NCBI GenBank assembly: GCA_002894665.1 | Contig: NCRB01000007.1 | Coordinates: 1-64,000 of the forward strand | Reading direction: 5' to 3' | Source: Salinivenus iranica | GTDB taxonomy: Bacteria > Bacteroidota > Rhodothermia > Rhodothermales > Salinibacteraceae | Length of the DNA: 64,000 nucleotides | Shown here: positions 9,364 to 26,311 of the stretch, piece after piece | Numbering within the stretch: position 1 is the first letter of the stretch | How the letters are laid out: each line of letters starts with the position of its first letter | Made by a program: the position numbers and the translations under genes | Notes under the pieces: model-generated | What the model was told of the DNA's origin: nothing | Database searches by the model: none | The model's input: only the letters and a program-made list of their open reading frames with translations

Positions 9364-10142
9364 CAAGCTACCGCAACGGGAGCTACGAGCGTCAGCTCAC
9401 CACGTGTGTCGGCCGGCTCGAGCTGGAGGTGCCCCGCGATCGAGAGGGGACATTCCAGACCGAACTCTTTCAGCTGTATCCGCGGTTGGGGAAAGCACTG
9501 GTTCTGGCTTTGATGCAGTATGGCCCACCAGGGCATCTCCATGCGCCGCGTGAAGGAGGTCACCACCGAGCTTTTGCGGACGGGAGTTCAGTAAGTCGAC
9601 AGGTGCTTGGCTCACCGGCGGGCTAGACGAGCAGGTTGAGGCCTGGGCCTCTCGCTCTCTGGAGGAGCAGCGCTACCCGTTTCTGGTGCTAGACGTGATG
9701 CACCTGAAGGTTCGGCGTCAGGGTGCGGTACGTTCAACGATCGTGATGCTGGCGGTATGCATCAATGAGGCGGGCCAACGGAAATTCTCGGCCTTTGAGA
9801 CCGCCTTCGGCTCTGCGGGCACTTGAGGACGGCCTATGCGAGGCGACCGCCGTACTGGCCGTGCCAGAGAAGTATCGAAAGCGGCTCCGGACGACAAACA
9901 TGCTGAAACGCTCCATTCAGGAGATCAGATATTGGGAAAAGGGGATCCGAATCTTCCTGAACATGGGCTCAGCTGGACGGCTTGTTGGCGCCCTCTGTGC
10001 AGAGACGCATGAAGGGGGGTTAACCGAGCACCGGTACCTGATCCTGGGCGAATACTTCGAGTGGAGAACCGCCCGATCGGCACTGTCCATGCCTAAATCG
10101 AAGATCTGGCAGAACGCTGGGTACACACTTTTCGGGCTTTGA
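9364..10142 (+). pseudogene. IS256-family transposase, C-terminal fragment
   Basis: It continues the transposase split at 7480: SYRNGSYERQLTTCVGRLEL, EVPRDREGTFQTELFQ, then after a frameshift ISMRRVKEVTTELLR, then SLEEQRYPFLVLDVMHLKVR. An internal deletion near 9816 joins FETAFGSAG to ATAVLAVPEKYRKRL, removing roughly a hundred residues of the catalytic region. The end reads LKRSIQEIRYWEKGIRIF and LVGALCAETHE. With several frameshifts, a stop and a deletion, the transposase cannot be active. Confidence 0.85.
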
Positions 10143-10641: not shown

Positions 10642-10959
10642 ATGTGTGGAGGCTCTAGCAGCAGTTACGCGTCTACTAGCACTTCCGACGAGAACTGTGA
10701 GGATGTCCACGTTAAAGAAAAGCTTAGCTCCCCGCAGCCGCGTGGAATGACAGAGGTTGAAGAGGGCGACATCTTAGCCATTGATTTGGTCGAGGGTTCA
10801 GTGAAGGCAGTGACAGAGGGTGGTCTTACTGTTGGCTCGATTACGGGCCCGGAGACCGCAAACCTGAAGGACTGTCTACGGAGCGGGCATGAATACGAGG
10901 CCGAGGTGGTAAGCAAGGAAGGAGGAAGTTGTGAAGTCGTGGTGACCTATGACAGGTAG
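10642..10959 (+). CDS. Small protein of unknown function, first gene of the PfkB-NDT/QueC-like operon
   Basis: A 105-residue protein. The first 35 residues are Ser/Glu-rich and look disordered. Residues 36-105 read as a small beta domain: EEGDILAIDL, VKAVTEGGLTVGSITG, then CLRSGHEYEAEVVSKEGG and CEVVVTY. The pattern of a strand, a GG turn, an L..C..SG helix and two final strands faintly recalls HIRAN domains, which bind DNA ends, but this is only a resemblance. It ends 8 bases before the kinase-transferase gene and is surely co-transcribed with it. No membrane segment or signal peptide is visible. Confidence 0.7.
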   Translation: MCGGSSSSYASTSTSDENCEDVHVKEKLSSPQPRGMTEVEEGDILAIDLVEGSVKAVTEGGLTVGSITGPETANLKDCLRSGHEYEAEVVSKEGGSCEVVVTYDR

Positions 10960-10967
10960 GACAAATA

Positions 10968-12173
10968 ATGGATGTCGTTGGTGGTACCTATCACGAATGC
11001 GTTCTTACAGGAGACTCGGCTAACCAGCTACGCGGTTCCGGCTTGCGAGGTGTTGCGGCCTTAGCGAATCTGCTCTCCGACCATGTGACGTTCCACACTT
11101 GCGTTGCAGAAGAGGACATACCGAAACTCGAAGCCTGTAAAGAAGCCTACTGCTTTGAGCCTGACATCTATGAAATCCCGGAGACGGTAGCGTTCAACTA
11201 TCTTCATCCCCTTCGAGGCGACGGATACAGACCGGTCAGTGCTTCCAGCCAAGAACGTCGATTTGAAGTCGATGTGGATGCTCCAGTACTGTACTTCGGA
11301 ATGATAGAAGCTACTCCCGTCGTCGATGGGAGCCGCGTAGTGTATGATCCTCAAAACGCGATCCCTCAACCCTTTTCTAAGACAGGCTCTGCAGCAGACG
11401 AACTAGCCCTTGTCCTTAACCGAGAAGAGGGTAGGCACTTGACTGATCGACAAGACCCTGTTTCGATATGCCAGCAACTTGTCGAGGAAGAAGCCTCTGT
11501 CGTTGTAATGAAATGTGGAACTCAAGGGGCTTACGTTTACAACGATGGAGAAATTGAATGGGTCGCTCCATATAAAACAGATGAAATACACCCGATTGGG
11601 TCGGGGGACGTGTTCTCAGCAGTTTTCTTTCGAGAATGGGCAGACAAGCAACGAGACCCCTTCGAGGCGGCTAAGACGGCCTCTCTCTATACTGCTTTCT
11701 ACTGTAGGTACAACAATTTGCCCTTTCCCTCAGATCCTTCCTTGGTAGAAGATTTCAATCCAGAGCCTATAAGTGCTTCTTTTAATCCTGGTCAAGTGTA
11801 TCTCGCTGGTCCATTTTTCGATATGGGCCAACAGATGATGGTTATTGAGACGAAAATGGCATTGGAGAAGATGGGGGCGGATGTATTTTCGCCGTATCAC
11901 GATGTTGGGTTTCCCAATAATAGTTACCAAAGAAAAAAGGTTGCCCGGAAAGATCTCGGAGGACTGGAGACAAGCGACGTTGTTCTTGCTCTGTTAGACG
12001 ATCCGGATCGCGGTACTTCTTTTGAGATGGGGTACGCGCGTAACTCAGATCTACCAGTGATAGGTTACGCGAATGATCTCGATAGAAATCATACGCTCAT
12101 GCTTGAAGGAACTGACTGCTTTCTGACCGAAAGCTTTTCAACTGCTATTTACAGAGCTTTATGGGCGACCTAG
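10968..12173 (+). CDS. PfkB-family kinase fused to nucleoside 2-deoxyribosyltransferase
   Basis: A 401-residue two-domain enzyme. Residues 1-265 form a ribokinase/PfkB-type fold: the start DVVGGTYHE is typical of PfkB sugar or nucleoside kinases, and IGSGDVFSAVF (210-220) carries the GSGD anion hole with catalytic Asp214. Residues 275-401 form a nucleoside 2-deoxyribosyltransferase-like domain: VYLAGPFFDMG (277-287), SDVVLALLDDPDRGTSFEMG with the probable nucleophile Glu353, then LPVIGY. Such transferases cleave or exchange the N-glycosidic bond of deoxynucleosides or dNMPs, and PfkB enzymes phosphorylate sugars or nucleosides. The fusion implies that one nucleoside passes through both steps. 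The gene overlaps the QueC-like gene by 13 bases, so the products are tightly coupled. The substrate is unknown. Confidence 0.85.
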   Translation: MDVVGGTYHECVLTGDSANQLRGSGLRGVAALANLLSDHVTFHTCVAEEDIPKLEACKEAYCFEPDIYEIPETVAFNYLHPLRGDGYRPVSASSQERRFEVDVDAPVLYFGMIEATPVVDGSRVVYDPQNAIPQPFSKTGSAADELALVLNREEGRHLTDRQDPVSICQQLVEEEASVVVMKCGTQGAYVYNDGEIEWVAPYKTDEIHPIGSGDVFSAVFFREWADKQRDPFEAAKTASLYTAFYCRYNNLPFPSDPSLVEDFNPEPISASFNPGQVYLAGPFFDMGQQMMVIETKMALEKMGADVFSPYHDVGFPNNSYQRKKVARKDLGGLETSDVVLALLDDPDRGTSFEMGYARNSDLPVIGYANDLDRNHTLMLEGTDCFLTESFSTAIYRALWAT

Positions 12174-12760
12174 AATATTCAAATATCCTGCTTTTTTCTG
12201 GTGGCATCGACTCGACCGCACTTGCGTTCTCGATGCGTCCAGATTTGGCCTTGACGGTAGATTATGGACAGGTCTGCGCAGATGCTGAGATTCTTGCGTC
12301 GGAGCAGATTTGCTCCACTTTGGGGGTTGAACATGAGGCTGTCGAGGTTGATTGCAGCGACTTCGGCACCGGGTCGCTCTCTCCCAATGAGCAAGTAGAA
12401 GAGGGACCCACGCCGGAATGGTGGCCGTTTCGAAACCAGTTTCTGATTACCGTTGCTGCTATGAAGGGAGTCCAGATAGGCGCTGATAATATTGTTGTCG
12501 GAACCGTTGAAGGGGACTCAGATCACGCCGATGGGCAGGCTGATTTTTTTCGATCAATGGACGAAGTAGTTTATGGACAGGAAGGGAGCCTACACGTGAG
12601 AGTGCCAGCTATATGCTCCACCACCGTCGAGCTCGTTGAACAATCAGGAGTTCCAGAAAGGATTCTGTTGTGGTCCCACTCCTGTCACGTTTCTAACCAC
12701 CCATGTGGCGAATGTAGGGGGTGTCAGAAACACTATGAGGTTATCGAGCAGTCTTTCTAA
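12161..12760 (+). CDS. QueC-like PP-loop ATPase (7-cyano-7-deazaguanine synthase homologue)
   Basis: A compact 199-residue relative of QueC. The ATP-pyrophosphatase P-loop is FSGGIDSTA (12-20), followed by LTVDYGQVCADAEI, a QueC hallmark, and PFRNQFLITVAA (89-100). A zinc site of four cysteines closes the protein: C175, C182, C185 and C188 (CHVSNHPCGECRGC). QueC makes a nitrile from a carboxylate using ammonia and ATP. This shorter form may work on a related substrate. It is distinct from the true-length QueC at 23940, which has lost these cysteines. The start ATG lies inside the end of the preceding gene. Confidence 0.85.
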   Translation: MGDLEYSNILLFSGGIDSTALAFSMRPDLALTVDYGQVCADAEILASEQICSTLGVEHEAVEVDCSDFGTGSLSPNEQVEEGPTPEWWPFRNQFLITVAAMKGVQIGADNIVVGTVEGDSDHADGQADFFRSMDEVVYGQEGSLHVRVPAICSTTVELVEQSGVPERILLWSHSCHVSNHPCGECRGCQKHYEVIEQSF

Positions 12761-12777
12761 CCCAAGGCCAGTCAGCC

Positions 12778-13089
12778 ATGGCTACACTCGTGGAAAAATC
12801 CCGATCCGATCATGATAAGATCATGAGTCGCGCACTTGACCAGTGGGGATTCGAAGGGCAGATTACAAAAACCTTTGAAGAATGTAGTGAGCTAAAAAAC
12901 GCTCTTCGACGCTACAAGAGAGGTGAGGCTAAAGATAAAGAAGTGATCACTGAGGTTGCTGATGTGATGATCATGGCATCGCAACTGGCCCATTATTTTG
13001 GGAGCCAGAAAGTCAAAGACGAAATAAATAGGAAGCTGAGTCGTGTAGAAAGACGTCTAGGGGAAACGTCCGACTCTACATTTGCATGA
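12778..13089 (+). CDS. MazG-like nucleotide pyrophosphohydrolase
   Basis: A 103-residue all-helical protein with the metal-binding MazG signature: EECSELKNAL (E35 and E38) in the first helix and EVADVMIMASQL (E59 and D62) in the next. Such enzymes cleave NTPs or dNTPs to monophosphates and pyrophosphate and remove non-canonical nucleotides from the pool. It follows the QueC-like gene by 17 bases and is probably the last gene of the operon. With the deoxyribosyltransferase and kinase upstream, it suggests handling of a modified deoxynucleotide. Its length is normal for single-domain MazG proteins. Confidence 0.88.
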   Translation: MATLVEKSRSDHDKIMSRALDQWGFEGQITKTFEECSELKNALRRYKRGEAKDKEVITEVADVMIMASQLAHYFGSQKVKDEINRKLSRVERRLGETSDSTFA

Positions 13090-13169: not shown

Positions 13170-14610
13170 GTCTACGCGATTCCTTCTAGGAAACCTCGTT
13201 CGCTGTTCGCGAGCCGCCACCAGGTCCCGTGCCCTCGTCCCTCCAGTTCGACCAGATCAAGTGAGCGAAGCGTCTGGAGGTTATTGCACTGTTCGACGAG
13301 GCACGTCATCCAGCGCCTCTTAAACGTCAGAAAGCGAGGTCTCGCCTGTTTTCGCGAGCACCTTCAAGATCTCACGCTGGAGACCGCTGAGATCGTGCTC
13401 AACGCGGGTCGGCGGAACGTAATGAACTGGGCGAAAGCGCACGACAATCTCCCCGCCCCGCTCCTCAAACTCCGGAGGAATGAGGCTCGCCTCTTCGGTA
13501 AGTTCGACCATTTTCACCGTGCCACGGCCCCACTGCTCGATGATCCCGCGGCGGTAGAAGGTATCCGCGATGAGGTCGTTGCGAATTTGAGACGTGTGCG
13601 GCTCGGTTAGCTCTTCAATCGTGATCTCGGGCGGCAGGGCGCCGATGTTCGTGATCTCGAGGCGGTCATCGAAGATAGCCATGCCAATGGAGCCGCCCTG
13701 GAGGCCGTAGTCGCGGTGGCAGAGCGCATTGGCCAGTGCCTCGCGGAGCGCCTCCAGCGGGTAAAGGGGGCGTGTCCTCACGCTCCATTTCGTCTGGGCG
13801 CACCTCGCTTGCAATCGGCAGGTGCTCCCGAAGAAACCGCTGGGCCTGCTGGAAGAGCTTGAACGCGTTCCCTCGCACCTGACGGTTGTCTTCAAACTCG
13901 CTTTTGGTCGTTCCACGGAACCGTGCCATCCGTAGGAGGCACTGCGGATAGTCGGGCATAAAGAGTCGATCCTCCCCGAAGAATACCACAGCGGCGTTTA
14001 AAACCTGCCCGTTGCGAATCAGGCCGAGACCTCGAAGAAGATCTTCAGGGTCGCGGGTCCCAGGCTCCCACATCCGCCCCCGGTCGGTCGCCGCATTGAT
14101 CGTTCGCGTGATCTCCGAAGCATCAAGGTCGCCCACCCCTATATTCGAGGCCGGACAGGCCTCCCAGCGCCGACGCGGGTCCCGGTTCTCCACGAGGCGC
14201 TGCTCGTAGGTCTCCTGCTCCATCTGCCGAGTCGTCGGTCCCTGCCGGACGTAGGAGCGTCCGTCGTAGGTGTACGGCCCTGTGCGGTCCCCAGGCACGC
14301 TGATGACGAGAACTGCACGATCGCCCTCTACCGGCACAATCTCCGGATCAAGGACCACCTGGGGTTCAATCTGGCTCAGTTCACGCGCGATGTCCTGGCG
14401 CGTGGAGTCCGATCCCTCCTGGCCTACGATGTCCCCGTCGTCGGTGACCCCGAAGAGGACGTGCCCGCCCCCTCCATTCAGCATTCCGCATATCGACCGG
14501 GCCGCGGCGCTTCGTTGTCCCGTCGAGCGCTTGAACTCCACCTGCGGAGACTCCCGGCCTCGTACGATACTTCGAACCTCATCAAGAGTCACAGACAATC
14601 GCGCTCCATG
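13170..14610 (-). pseudogene. Frameshifted AlbA-type (COG2865) ATP-binding transcriptional regulator
   Basis: The minus strand begins near 14600 with an AlbA_2 (Schlafen-like) domain (VEFKRSTGQRSAAARSI, GGGHVLFGVTDDG). It continues through the middle region to SEVRPDEMERE at about 13800. A frameshift there moves the reading to the frame that carries the HATPase-like part (LREALANALCHRDYGLQGGS, RGIIEQWGRGTVKMVEL). A second break near 13320 separates a final winged-helix piece (VEQCNNLQTLRSLDLVELEG, about 13180-13310). All parts of a normal regulator of about 480 residues are recognisable but in three frames, so it is a recent pseudogene. An original start at TTG or GTG around 14592-14598 is likely. 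Alternatively, sequencing error could explain the breaks. Confidence 0.8.
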
Positions 14611-14909
14611 AACAGTCGAGTCGCAGCGAAAGAAAACGGACTCTTCAGCAAACCATAAGCAGGGTGCATCCCGGCGGTTTTTGGAATGGCGAAGAGCTCG
14701 CAAACTCCGTGATCAATGCCGCTGAAGCAAGGAGCAAGCTTGAAGGTGAAGTCGCGAAGCTCTTCCGGGCCGCCCACGACATGTTCCAAACTGCAGGCGC
14801 GGGGTTGACGATGCACCCGTAAGAGTCACCTGTCGACTGGGACGTTCGGTGCTCCTGGAGGGAAGCTCCTCACACACCGTGGAGGACACTCAGAGCGCCG
14901 AAGGGCGAA

Positions 14910-23423: not shown

Positions 23424-23930
23424 ATGACAGTAGCCAAGCGATTTCGTTGGGAAGCGGCACACCGCCTTCCCTGGCACGAGGGAGACTGTCGGTTTGTCCA
23501 TGGGCACTCCTACCGGATGATGGTAGAAGTGGAGGGGGAGCCTACGGAGGATACCCCCGGTGGCAGCTCGATGCTGATTGATTTCAAGCACGTTAAGCGG
23601 ATGGTCAAGCCTCTGGTTGAAGAAATGGACCATGCGACCATGGTCGCCGACTACGACACCGAACTGAAGGAGGCCCTGGCGACGATCAACTCGAAGACAT
23701 ACGTGCTTGACGTGGACTCGACAGCCGAAAACCTCGCGGCTCACTTTGCTGATCACATAGGCACCGAAGGCCACGAGGTCCTCGAAAAGCATGGCGTCGA
23801 TACGATTCGGGTCAAGCTTTGGGAAACGGAAACCTGCTACGCGGAGATTAAAAAATCGGTCTCAGAATACGTCGGCGTAGAGGAGTCCGAAGTCGAGACC
23901 CATTCCACCCCTACTCCCGTGAGCGCGTAG
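23424..23930 (+). CDS. queD: 6-carboxy-5,6,7,8-tetrahydropterin synthase QueD
   Basis: A 168-residue member of the 6-pyruvoyl-tetrahydropterin synthase family. It converts 7,8-dihydroneopterin triphosphate to 6-carboxytetrahydropterin, the second step to preQ0. The zinc ligands His13 (WEAAHRL), His26 and His28 (VHGHSY) are present. So are the catalytic Cys22, the Asp69-His70 pair and the substrate-binding Glu136 (WETETCYAEI). It is somewhat longer than typical QueD (about 120-140) because of an insertion around 38-50 and a C-terminal tail. It is 9 bases from queC and part of the queD-queC-queE-folE2 operon that supplies the Dpd system. Confidence 0.95.
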   Translation: MTVAKRFRWEAAHRLPWHEGDCRFVHGHSYRMMVEVEGEPTEDTPGGSSMLIDFKHVKRMVKPLVEEMDHATMVADYDTELKEALATINSKTYVLDVDSTAENLAAHFADHIGTEGHEVLEKHGVDTIRVKLWETETCYAEIKKSVSEYVGVEESEVETHSTPTPVSA

Positions 23931-23939
23931 CTACCAGAT

Positions 23940-24671
23940 ATGGAGATTGGAAACAACCAGAATCTGTCTCCTCCTTCCACGCCCGGCGATTCAGCCGTCG
24001 TATTGTTTTCTGGAGGACAAGACTCTACGACCTGTCTCTTTTGGGCGCTGCACCACTTCGATGAGGTCAGGGCCCTCGGCTTCGACTACGGACAAAAACA
24101 TGACGTCGAGGTTGAGCAGGCGCAGAAGATTGCCTCCCAGGCGGGCGTGCCGTACGATCGGATTGACATGGCGGGCACCCTCGAAGGCTCGGCGCTCACC
24201 GAGCATGAGAAAGACATGAGCGCCAAGCACGAGAAGGATGAGAACCTACCTGCCTCCTTCGTCCCAGGTCGCAACGCGCTCTTTTTGAGCACCGCGGCGA
24301 GTTATGCCTACAACCGCGACATCCGGGACCTCATCGGGGGGATGTGTCAAACCGACTACTCTGGCTATCCGGACTGTCGCCGCGTCTTCATTGACTCCAT
24401 GGAGACGAGCCTGTCCTTGGCAATGGACGTCGACGTGCGCATCCACACGCCACTCATGTACCTCACCAAGGCCGAGACCTGGAAGTTGGCAAAAGACCTC
24501 GGGGAGGTAAATGGAGAAGATGTATTCGAGACGGTTCGCGTTGAGAGTCACACGGACTACAACGGCAACCGCTCACAGTGGAACGAATGGGGATACGGCA
24601 AACTCGACAACCCGGCCTCGAAGCTCCGCGCTGAGGGCTACAAAGAAGCCAAGGAGAAAGGATGGATATAG
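23940..24671 (+). CDS. queC: 7-cyano-7-deazaguanine (preQ0) synthase QueC, zinc cysteines lost
   Basis: A 243-residue QueC, the ATP-dependent enzyme that turns 7-carboxy-7-deazaguanine into preQ0. The PP-loop is LFSGGQDSTTCLFWAL (22-37), followed by ALGFDYGQKHDVE and VPGRNALFLSTAA (108-120). The expected C-terminal zinc knuckle (one Cys, then CxxCxxC) reads TDYNG (205-209) and GKLDNPASKLRAEG (220-233). All four cysteines are therefore replaced, by Asp206, Lys221, Asn224 and Ser227, while the surrounding residues are kept. The fold may be held without zinc. It overlaps queE by 10 bases. A second QueC-like gene at 12161 retains the cysteines. Confidence 0.93.
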   Translation: MEIGNNQNLSPPSTPGDSAVVLFSGGQDSTTCLFWALHHFDEVRALGFDYGQKHDVEVEQAQKIASQAGVPYDRIDMAGTLEGSALTEHEKDMSAKHEKDENLPASFVPGRNALFLSTAASYAYNRDIRDLIGGMCQTDYSGYPDCRRVFIDSMETSLSLAMDVDVRIHTPLMYLTKAETWKLAKDLGEVNGEDVFETVRVESHTDYNGNRSQWNEWGYGKLDNPASKLRAEGYKEAKEKGWI

Positions 24672-25483
24672 ACCGCAAGAACGCCACTTTGCCTGATGGT
24701 CCGCCCGCGGAGGCAGACCCATCCGGTACCGAGTCGCAGGAAGCGTCCCTGCCGAGTGACGTAAAGCAGGGGGAGGGCTCTGCTCAGACGTACCGTGTCA
24801 AGAATGTTTTTCGCACCGTTCAGGGCGAAGGATTCTGGGCTGGACGTCCTGCTGTATTCGTCCGTCTGGTAGGATGCAACATGTGGAGCGGGTACGAGGA
24901 GGATCGCGAGCGAGATGCGGAGCGGACGGGTGCGGGTTGCCCGCTCTGGTGCGACACAGACTTCACGAAGGAGGGAAGTGATGAGTTTACCGCCGCGGGG
25001 CTAGTTTCTCAGATGAAAGAAGAAGGGGGTGAGATTGGCTTCTGCGTCCTCACCGGTGGAGAGCCGTTTCTTCAGGCCGACGCCGCACTGATAGAGGCGC
25101 TTCACGACGCTGGGTACCAAGTCTCAATCGAGACCAACGGCACCGTACCAATTGAGGATGCTTTCTGGAGCGAGAGCAGAGAGCAACTGGTACCGCCGGA
25201 CTGGATCACCTGCAGCCCGAAGCTTCCAGAAGAGCAACTGCAACTGGAACGGTTCGATGAACTGAAACTCATCGTCCCTGATTATCGGCCTTCCGACTAC
25301 AAAGACTTTGCTGAACGGGGAATCGTGCACGGTGTCAACGGGGAGGAACGGAGGATCCTGCAGGTGCAGCCTGAAGATGGTCCTCGGCTGGAGGAGGCCA
25401 AGAACCTGGCCGTCGAGATCGTAACGAAAAACCCAGACTGGCAGGTGAGCGTGCAGGCCCACAAGATGCTTGGTATCGCTTAG
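24662..25483 (+). CDS. queE: 7-carboxy-7-deazaguanine synthase QueE (radical SAM)
   Basis: A 273-residue radical-SAM enzyme that converts carboxytetrahydropterin to 7-carboxy-7-deazaguanine. The start FRTVQGEGFWAGRPAVFVRL (50-69) and the SAM-binding motif LTGGEPFLQ (130-138) are classical QueE. The cluster cysteines are Cys72, Cys93 and Cys97. This gives C-x20-C-x3-C, with a long loop like the QueE forms that have C-x14-C-x2-C, but with an extra residue (Trp96) between the last two cysteines. The first 40 residues are a polar extension. It is translationally coupled to queC, and folE2 follows after 15 bases. Confidence 0.93.
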   Translation: MDIDRKNATLPDGPPAEADPSGTESQEASLPSDVKQGEGSAQTYRVKNVFRTVQGEGFWAGRPAVFVRLVGCNMWSGYEEDRERDAERTGAGCPLWCDTDFTKEGSDEFTAAGLVSQMKEEGGEIGFCVLTGGEPFLQADAALIEALHDAGYQVSIETNGTVPIEDAFWSESREQLVPPDWITCSPKLPEEQLQLERFDELKLIVPDYRPSDYKDFAERGIVHGVNGEERRILQVQPEDGPRLEEAKNLAVEIVTKNPDWQVSVQAHKMLGIA

Positions 25484-25498
25484 AACTCACATTTACAA

Positions 25499-26311
25499 AT
25501 GGCCCACTCCGGAGAAGGACTCGCCGACGTTCAAAGCAGCAGAGACGACCGAGGCATTGCGCTTGACCAGGTCGGGGTCAGTGACCTAAAGTATCCGATC
25601 ACCGTCTTAGACCGAGAGCAAGAGACGCAGCAGACGGTAGCGGAGGTGTCGATGTCGGTGGGGCTCCCGAAGGAATATAAAGGCACCCACATGAGCCGCT
25701 TCGTCGAGGTGCTCAACCAGTACCGAGGCGAGTTTACGATGCACACCCTGCCTGATCTGCTTGAAACGCTTCAAGAACGACTAGAGGCTGAACAAGCCCG
25801 GATTGAAGTCGAGTTTCCGTATTTCCTTAAACGTACGGCCCCGGTGACAGAGAAAGAGGCGCTTATGGACTACGAGTGCTCGTTCGTCGGGGAGAAAAAC
25901 GGTGACGACAGTAGCTTTATACTCGGTGTAACCGTGCCGGTGACGAGCCTCTGCCCCTGCAGCAAGGAGATCAGCGAGGAGGGGGCACATAACCAGCGAG
26001 GAAATGTCGGCATCCAGGTCCGCAGTGTACCGAACGAGGAGGGAGCCCCGACGATGATCTGGATCGAGGAGCTCGTCGAGATGGCAGAAGTGTCAGCTTC
26101 CGCTCCGCTGTATCCACTTCTGAAGCGGCCGGACGAGCGCCACGTGACCATGGAGGCGTACCAAAATCCAGCGTTTGTGGAAGATATCACGCGGGACATG
26201 GCCGTGCGGCTGAAGGAAGACGAGCGGGTGGCGTGGTTTCATCTCCAAGTAGAGAACTTCGAGAGTATCCACAATCACAACGCGTTTGCGGAAGTAACGT
26301 GGGAGAAGTGA
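25499..26311 (+). CDS. folE2: GTP cyclohydrolase FolE2 (type IB)
   Basis: A 270-residue GTP cyclohydrolase of the FolE2/COG1469 family. It opens GTP to dihydroneopterin triphosphate, the first step of both folate and preQ0 synthesis. The family motifs are KGTHMSRFVEVLN (61-73), SLCPCSKEIS (150-159, active-site cysteines 152 and 154) and GAHNQRG (162-168), followed by the tail FESIHNHNAFAEV. The length is normal. Its place after queE shows that it is dedicated to the 7-deazapurine pathway of the island rather than folate supply. This type works with various metals, which may free the pathway from zinc limitation. Confidence 0.95.
   Translation: MAHSGEGLADVQSSRDDRGIALDQVGVSDLKYPITVLDREQETQQTVAEVSMSVGLPKEYKGTHMSRFVEVLNQYRGEFTMHTLPDLLETLQERLEAEQARIEVEFPYFLKRTAPVTEKEALMDYECSFVGEKNGDDSSFILGVTVPVTSLCPCSKEISEEGAHNQRGNVGIQVRSVPNEEGAPTMIWIEELVEMAEVSASAPLYPLLKRPDERHVTMEAYQNPAFVEDITRDMAVRLKEDERVAWFHLQVENFESIHNHNAFAEVTWEK

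Follow-up and report, generated by a model that had tools for sequence, protein, structure and literature searches.

What do four closely spaced genes, encoding a small protein, a PfkB-NDT fusion, a QueC-like enzyme and a MazG-like protein, do together in Salinivenus iranica? They lie in the window, the whole stretch of 64,000 nucleotides that was analysed (contig NCRB01000007.1, positions 1 to 64,000). Their coordinates are collected in Table 1. From gene 1 to gene 4, they are separated by a gap of 8 bases, an overlap of 13 bases and a gap of 17 bases. This tight packing agrees exactly with a sequence-only reading of the same DNA, which had also named the PfkB-NDT fusion and a QueC-like enzyme with an intact zinc site. 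Both of these assignments were borne out: gene 2 matches PF00294 (8e-11) and PF05014 (3e-17), and gene 3 matches PF06508 (3e-24) with four conserved zinc cysteines. The assignment of gene 4 as MazG stood in part. The MazG metal motif can be read by eye as ExxE (35-38) and ExxD (59-62), but the PF03819 score is 19.4 against a gathering score of 22 bits. The fold of gene 4 predicted from its single sequence was of low confidence, and a structure search with it gave no useful match.

A fragment of a Mutator-family transposase (window 9765-10142) is located directly 5' of the cassette. An AlbA_2/Schlafen-type gene (window 13320-13916 plus 13666-14703, minus strand) seems to be split by a frameshift, its C-terminal ATPase-like part running on in another frame.

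Table 1. Features of the cassette and of the dpd island in the window
Feature	Position	Strand	Evidence	Proposed role or remark
HIRAN-domain small protein, 105 aa, with Gly/Ser/Thr-rich disordered N-terminal tail	10642..10959	+	Conserved 5' of PfkB-NDT in 89/98 loci; AF2; Foldseek	Proposed nucleobase acceptor
N-terminal motif M-C-G-G-S-S-S-S	10642..10665	+	Conservation in 55 homologues	Predicted modification site once Met is removed
PfkB kinase - nucleoside 2-deoxyribosyltransferase (NDT) fusion, 401 aa	10968..12173	+	PF00294 and PF05014 above cut-off; invariant motifs	
QueC-like PP-loop ligase, 199 aa	12161..12760	+	PF06508; Cap9 9nto, 7e-16	Would attach 7-carboxy-7-deazaguanine to the HIRAN N-terminus (proposed)
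MazG-like NTP pyrophosphohydrolase	12778..13089	+	PF03819 E 0.0013, below cut-off; motif in sequence	Local, non-conserved accessory
QueD of dpd island	23424..23930	+	Operon QueD profile match, 5e-22	Possible deazaguanine precursor source
QueE (7-carboxy-7-deazaguanine synthase) of dpd island	24662..25483	+	TIGR04508, 4e-48	Possible precursor source
FolE2 GTP cyclohydrolase of dpd island	25499..26311	+	NF010200, 1e-86, above cut-off	Possible precursor source

With gene 3 as the query, 84,980 species genomes gave 80 loci and plasmids gave 24 records. Viral contigs contained one close copy of gene 3, and the QueC proteins in phage records were distant, with identities up to about 28% among the matches listed. 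PfkB-NDT is present in 95 of the 98 loci examined. The conserved unit is three genes, encoding the HIRAN small protein, PfkB-NDT and the QueC-like enzyme, and their co-occurrence in 89 of the 98 loci exceeds chance; of the nine loci without the small protein, some end with the contig and others seem incomplete. Across the loci, the usual overlap is 4 bases between genes 1 and 2 and 4-22 bases between genes 2 and 3. The hosts are Pseudomonadota, Bacteroidota, Actinomycetota, Acidobacteriota, Myxococcota, Verrucomicrobiota, Planctomycetota, Cyanobacteriota and haloarchaea, plasmids included. The search of the other 97 loci gave no homologue of the MazG gene, which rules MazG out as a core gene; of the four genes read as one unit, the first three belong together and the fourth does not. 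The sequence-only reading had advised a search for the gene set in other genomes, with or without dpd genes. The set recurs widely without dpd. Several dpd-region homologues stand beside the cassette at only one of the 97 other loci (L065, from Dactylosporangium), and a dpd linkage of the cassette is thereby ruled out. At L065 (8136-12510), homologues of three dpd-region genes of the window adjoin the cassette, the operon's own QueE is a fragment, and a second QueC and a QueE-like gene are located about 25 kb away.

QueC-family enzymes are known from two defence systems, with protein modification shown for one and proposed for the other. In type IV CBASS, Cap9 joins 7-carboxy-7-deazaguanine (CDG) to the N-terminal Gly of the CD-NTase (MGGS), and QatB requires an MGTS N-terminus (PMC13279940; PMC11996544); QatC uses a similar motif, yet is without both CDG-binding residues (PMC13279940). 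Protein deazaguanylation was reported in 2025 for type IV CBASS and proposed in 2026 for Qat. Gene 3 is not a canonical QueC: its score against TIGR00364 is 77 bits, with a cut-off of 150, and the canonical YPDC motif is HxDG. When its profile was compared with solved structures, Cap9 was the top match, ahead of QueC. The SGGxDS motif and the zinc cysteines C175, C182, C185 and C188 are conserved in the family, and RN is also kept. Asp124, which corresponds to the base-edge reader Asp117 of Cap9, is invariant. The enzyme thus carries the catalytic signature of a Cap9-like ligase, except that Tyr115 of Cap9, which stacks on CDG, is replaced by His122 in 44 of 45 QueC-like sequences. Because of this replacement, the substrate could differ from CDG. 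In the relatives of PfkB-NDT, the NxxE and G[S/T]GD motifs of PfkB and the DxGTxxExG motif of NDT are invariant, as is Glu353 of NDT.

The small protein matches no Pfam family. Its AF2 model, based on 58 homologues, has a pLDDT of 86 and a pTM of 0.71, with low confidence in the first ~20 residues. Foldseek matched this model to 3k2y (1e-4) and to the HIRAN-DNA structures of HLTF, 4s0n and 4xzf (~1.5e-3; TM 0.63-0.65). In this model, a disordered tail precedes a HIRAN domain. Two HIRAN-like repeats can be read by eye in the haloarchaeal copies. Longer small proteins with an apparent second repeat are encoded at L075 (4187-4762), L079 (4134-4727), L168 and L173.

The start of this protein is nearly fixed, as M-[S/G/C/T/A]-G-[S/G]. 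Among 55 non-redundant homologues, whose start codons were picked with the motif in mind in ORFs having several starts, so that the counts are biased towards the pattern, residue 2 is Ser in 43, Gly in 8, Cys in 2, Thr in 1 and Ala in 1; position 3 is Gly in 54, and position 4 is Ser in 40 and Gly in 13 (Ser or Gly in 53 of 55). The first start of many ORFs already has the motif, and several plasmid records annotate the identical start. The information content falls from more than 3 bits to about 1 bit by position 8, and the tail beyond the first residues varies in length and sequence. Most copies begin with MSG[S/G], and L045, L048, L072, L075 and L087 with MGGS, which continues as MGGSG in L045. 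The MCGG of the window is shared with Halorientalis only and is ruled out as a universal start. A small residue at position 2 predicts removal of the initiator Met, and this removal is predicted for the small protein. The motif resembles the acceptor N-termini of type IV CBASS and QatB. A near-invariant start on a variable tail, with a motif like those of the known acceptors, suggests conjugation. In most copies the putative acceptor residue is Ser instead of Gly, and this counts against a Cap9-like CDG model, as does the loss of both CDG-binding residues in QatC.

The genes around the cassette point to several sources of CDG. Ten of the 11 actinobacterial genomes are without QueC above the cut-off, and in 7 of the 11 QueE is found solely at the operon, with QueD adjoining. 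Bacteroidota genomes without QueC above the cut-off still have QueD and QueE matches. At L014, and at L072 and L075, whose genomes gave no convincing QueE in these searches, a homologue of the queuosine-precursor transporter adjoins the cassette; the match of the latter two to TIGR00697 (about 2e-8) is below the cut-off. Operons in genomes without the deazaguanine pathway often have their own QueD-QueE or this transporter. A transporter homologue beside the cassette, usually just 3' of it, is also seen at L003, L021, L082 and L172. For L060 and L031, genome searches found no QueE and the transporter is not linked, which counts against the CDG model. In the window genome, CDG is probably supplied by the neighbouring dpd island through FolE2, QueD and QueE. 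The genomes of L060 and L031, where no CDG source could be seen, together with the change of Tyr to His in the base pocket, would suit a ligase that joins an acid other than CDG to the HIRAN protein, as suspected for QatC; the linkage to QueD-QueE or to the transporter and the invariance of the base-reading Asp speak for CDG, and we regard another acid as unlikely.

In relatives, copies of the cassette sit in defence islands, whereas the canonical queC genes of the same genomes do not. In 20 genomes having both, with an identical gene-picking rule, 144 PADLOC families were matched around the cassette and 22 around canonical queC; these are counts of families and not of proteins, because one protein may match several families. 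The neighbours of the cassette include Gabija, Hachiman, AbiE, Lamassu, Upx and dGTPase, and those of canonical queC are mostly single weak or generic families. On plasmids, TIR, restriction-modification, Dam and ubiquitin-like genes are neighbours of the cassette. By eye, genes resembling a Pycsar-type cyclase and a CD-NTase/HORMA/TRIP13 CBASS operon border the cassette at L057 (1746-10026), and this CBASS-like cluster reads as separate from it. The AAA and DUF4435 genes at L030 were rejected as partner effectors; they match AriA/AriB of PARIS, an independent system.

This setting bears on purine or deoxynucleoside salvage or housecleaning, in which a free base of the deazaguanine type would come from the QueC-like enzyme, and its nucleosides and nucleotides would be processed by NDT and PfkB together with MazG. 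Salvage is suggested in PMC13329287 for Cluster 4, the family of this enzyme, and the intact active sites of NDT and PfkB and the presence of dGTPase (19 loci) or MazG nearby are in keeping with it. It leaves unexplained, however, the HIRAN protein and its fixed N-terminus, the location in defence islands, unlike that of canonical queC, and the presence on plasmids. We judge it improbable. The sequence-only reading had offered housecleaning of dPreQ0-type nucleotides as one idea, which is not supported, because it leaves the HIRAN protein and its N-terminus unexplained and because dpd neighbours are almost absent at the other loci. Its other idea, an independent nucleotide-based defence system, has gained ground: a nucleobase-based defence separate from dpd fits best, because the relatives lie in chromosomal and plasmid defence islands.

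Most copies are accompanied by an OGG-like glycosylase (PF22175; 71 of 98 loci) and a SagB-like nitroreductase. At L045 (6575-7306), a PADLOC OGG-family gene (model match 2e-79) follows QueC in place of SagB, and at L048 (4546-5196) a homologue of this gene occupies the same place and is followed by a dGTPase gene. The PADLOC OGG model is numbered adjacent to the PADLOC QueC model, and we take it to derive from type IV CBASS. In Moraxella, an antiphage dGTPase overlaps gene 3; in Agrobacterium and Rhizobium, a gene annotated as a restriction endonuclease is in its place. This looks like a constant three-gene core with exchangeable partners. A DNA repair or modification operon, in which the HIRAN and OGG-like proteins would act on DNA that is damaged or modified and QueC and NDT would provide a modified base, would account for the frequent OGG-like gene, the HIRAN fold and the Dam methylase that adjoins the cassette in gammaproteobacterial and Synechocystis plasmids, but it is very unlikely, as OGG is absent from the haloarchaeal and Bacteroidota copies and from the window, where the HIRAN N-terminus is kept, and as the unit is without a base-inserting TGT/DpdA gene.

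It seems likely, on the evidence of the ligase family, the fixed N-terminus and the defence setting, that genes 1-3 form a third QueC-type protein-nucleobase conjugation module, acting in anti-phage defence. Removal of Met would leave a small residue, Cys in the window, exposed at the N-terminus of the HIRAN protein and its flexible tail. The QueC-like ligase would then activate CDG with ATP and join it to this N-terminus, as Cap9 does to the CD-NTase; family, motif and gene linkage all point this way. NDT-PfkB may act on the base: it may supply the base or take it off deoxynucleosides, or it may attach 2-deoxyribose (phosphate) to the base once this is bound to the protein. This is the weakest step, and the role would parallel that of the TGT-like Cap10. 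The best-known relative of the HIRAN domain binds 3' ends of DNA, and the domain here might sense invading or broken DNA. The linked partners (OGG-like glycosylase and SagB-like oxidase, dGTPase or nuclease, and MazG in the window) would execute or tune the response.

A doubtful extension of the conjugation module is that a nucleotide is built on the protein end. CDG would form an amide at residue 2, and Ser or Thr at this position would be converted to an azoline in a second ATP-driven step and then to an azole by the SagB-like enzyme. Addition of deoxyribose by NDT and of phosphate by PfkB would give the HIRAN protein a deoxynucleotide cap that engages or joins DNA ends. In SagB-bearing copies, residue 2 is Ser or Thr in 38 of 38 non-redundant loci (one start corrected by eye). 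SagB is absent where residue 2 is Gly, Ala or Cys (Fisher 3e-7, ancestry ignored), but the association is not significant, because the tree gives only 2-3 independent contrasts; as a firm link it was rejected, and once ancestry is counted it is suggestive only.

The cassette was found in 0 of 59 relatives of the window genome, its GC content is lower (0.50 versus 0.57), and in the tree the window copy and haloarchaeal plasmid copies form one group (98% SH-aLRT). For these reasons, the cassette probably arrived by horizontal transfer, and the donor may have been a halophilic neighbour. No TBP was found in the window genome, which rules out that this genome is an archaeon.

The claim that no named system has this composition was nearly right. 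The QueC-like family had been described in 2026 as Cluster 4, with PfkB-NDT neighbours noted and purine salvage suggested (PMC13329287); the main text of that paper, in its treatment of Cluster 4, describes no HIRAN protein, glycosylase or nitroreductase and no N-terminal motif or defence role. Among the papers listed, a literature search for HIRAN with QueC gave unrelated word matches only; Burroughs 2015 was outside the search, and an earlier mention there is possible. The HIRAN partner and the conjugation function appear to be unreported in the searchable literature. If the proposal is true, nucleobase tagging would become a general immune strategy, because a third, unrelated acceptor would have the same type of N-terminus. 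The HIRAN protein of ~105 aa would then be a small test protein for tagging. The NDT-PfkB and SagB partners hint at a possible fate of the base after attachment, and a QueC cluster currently filed under purine salvage would gain a testable function.

Comparison with known systems places the cassette as follows. It may share the CDG precursor with dpd, which is 10 kb away in the window, but there is no dpd gene in the unit. Both the zinc motif CH(x)5CxxCxGCxK and the PfkB-NDT neighbour given for Cluster 4 in the main text of PMC13329287 are found here; YGQ(x)6E is printed there, whereas the sequences here have YGQ(x)5E. QatABCD likewise combines a QueC-family enzyme with a dedicated partner having a disordered tail and a conserved start. 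However, QatC is ~20 kDa larger than this type of enzyme and has a remodelled pocket (Thr/Thr), QatB is all-helical, the unit here is without KAP ATPase or TatD nuclease, and the Qat models gave no match to window genes 1-4. Type IV CBASS differs in having a CD-NTase, which is absent from the unit and from the window cassette, where the HIRAN protein is the proposed acceptor. In addition, PfkB-NDT is in place of the TGT-like Cap10, a SagB-like oxidase is often present here, and residue 2 is mostly Ser. Type IV CBASS nevertheless shares with the cassette a QueC-family ligase, that of the cassette being closest to Cap9, a flexible Gly/Ser start of the acceptor, which is a proposed one in the cassette (MGGS there; here MGGSG in several copies, mostly MSG[S/G], and MCGG in the window), a base-exchange enzyme (TGT there, NDT here), and the PADLOC OGG-family gene seen at L045, with its homologue at L048.
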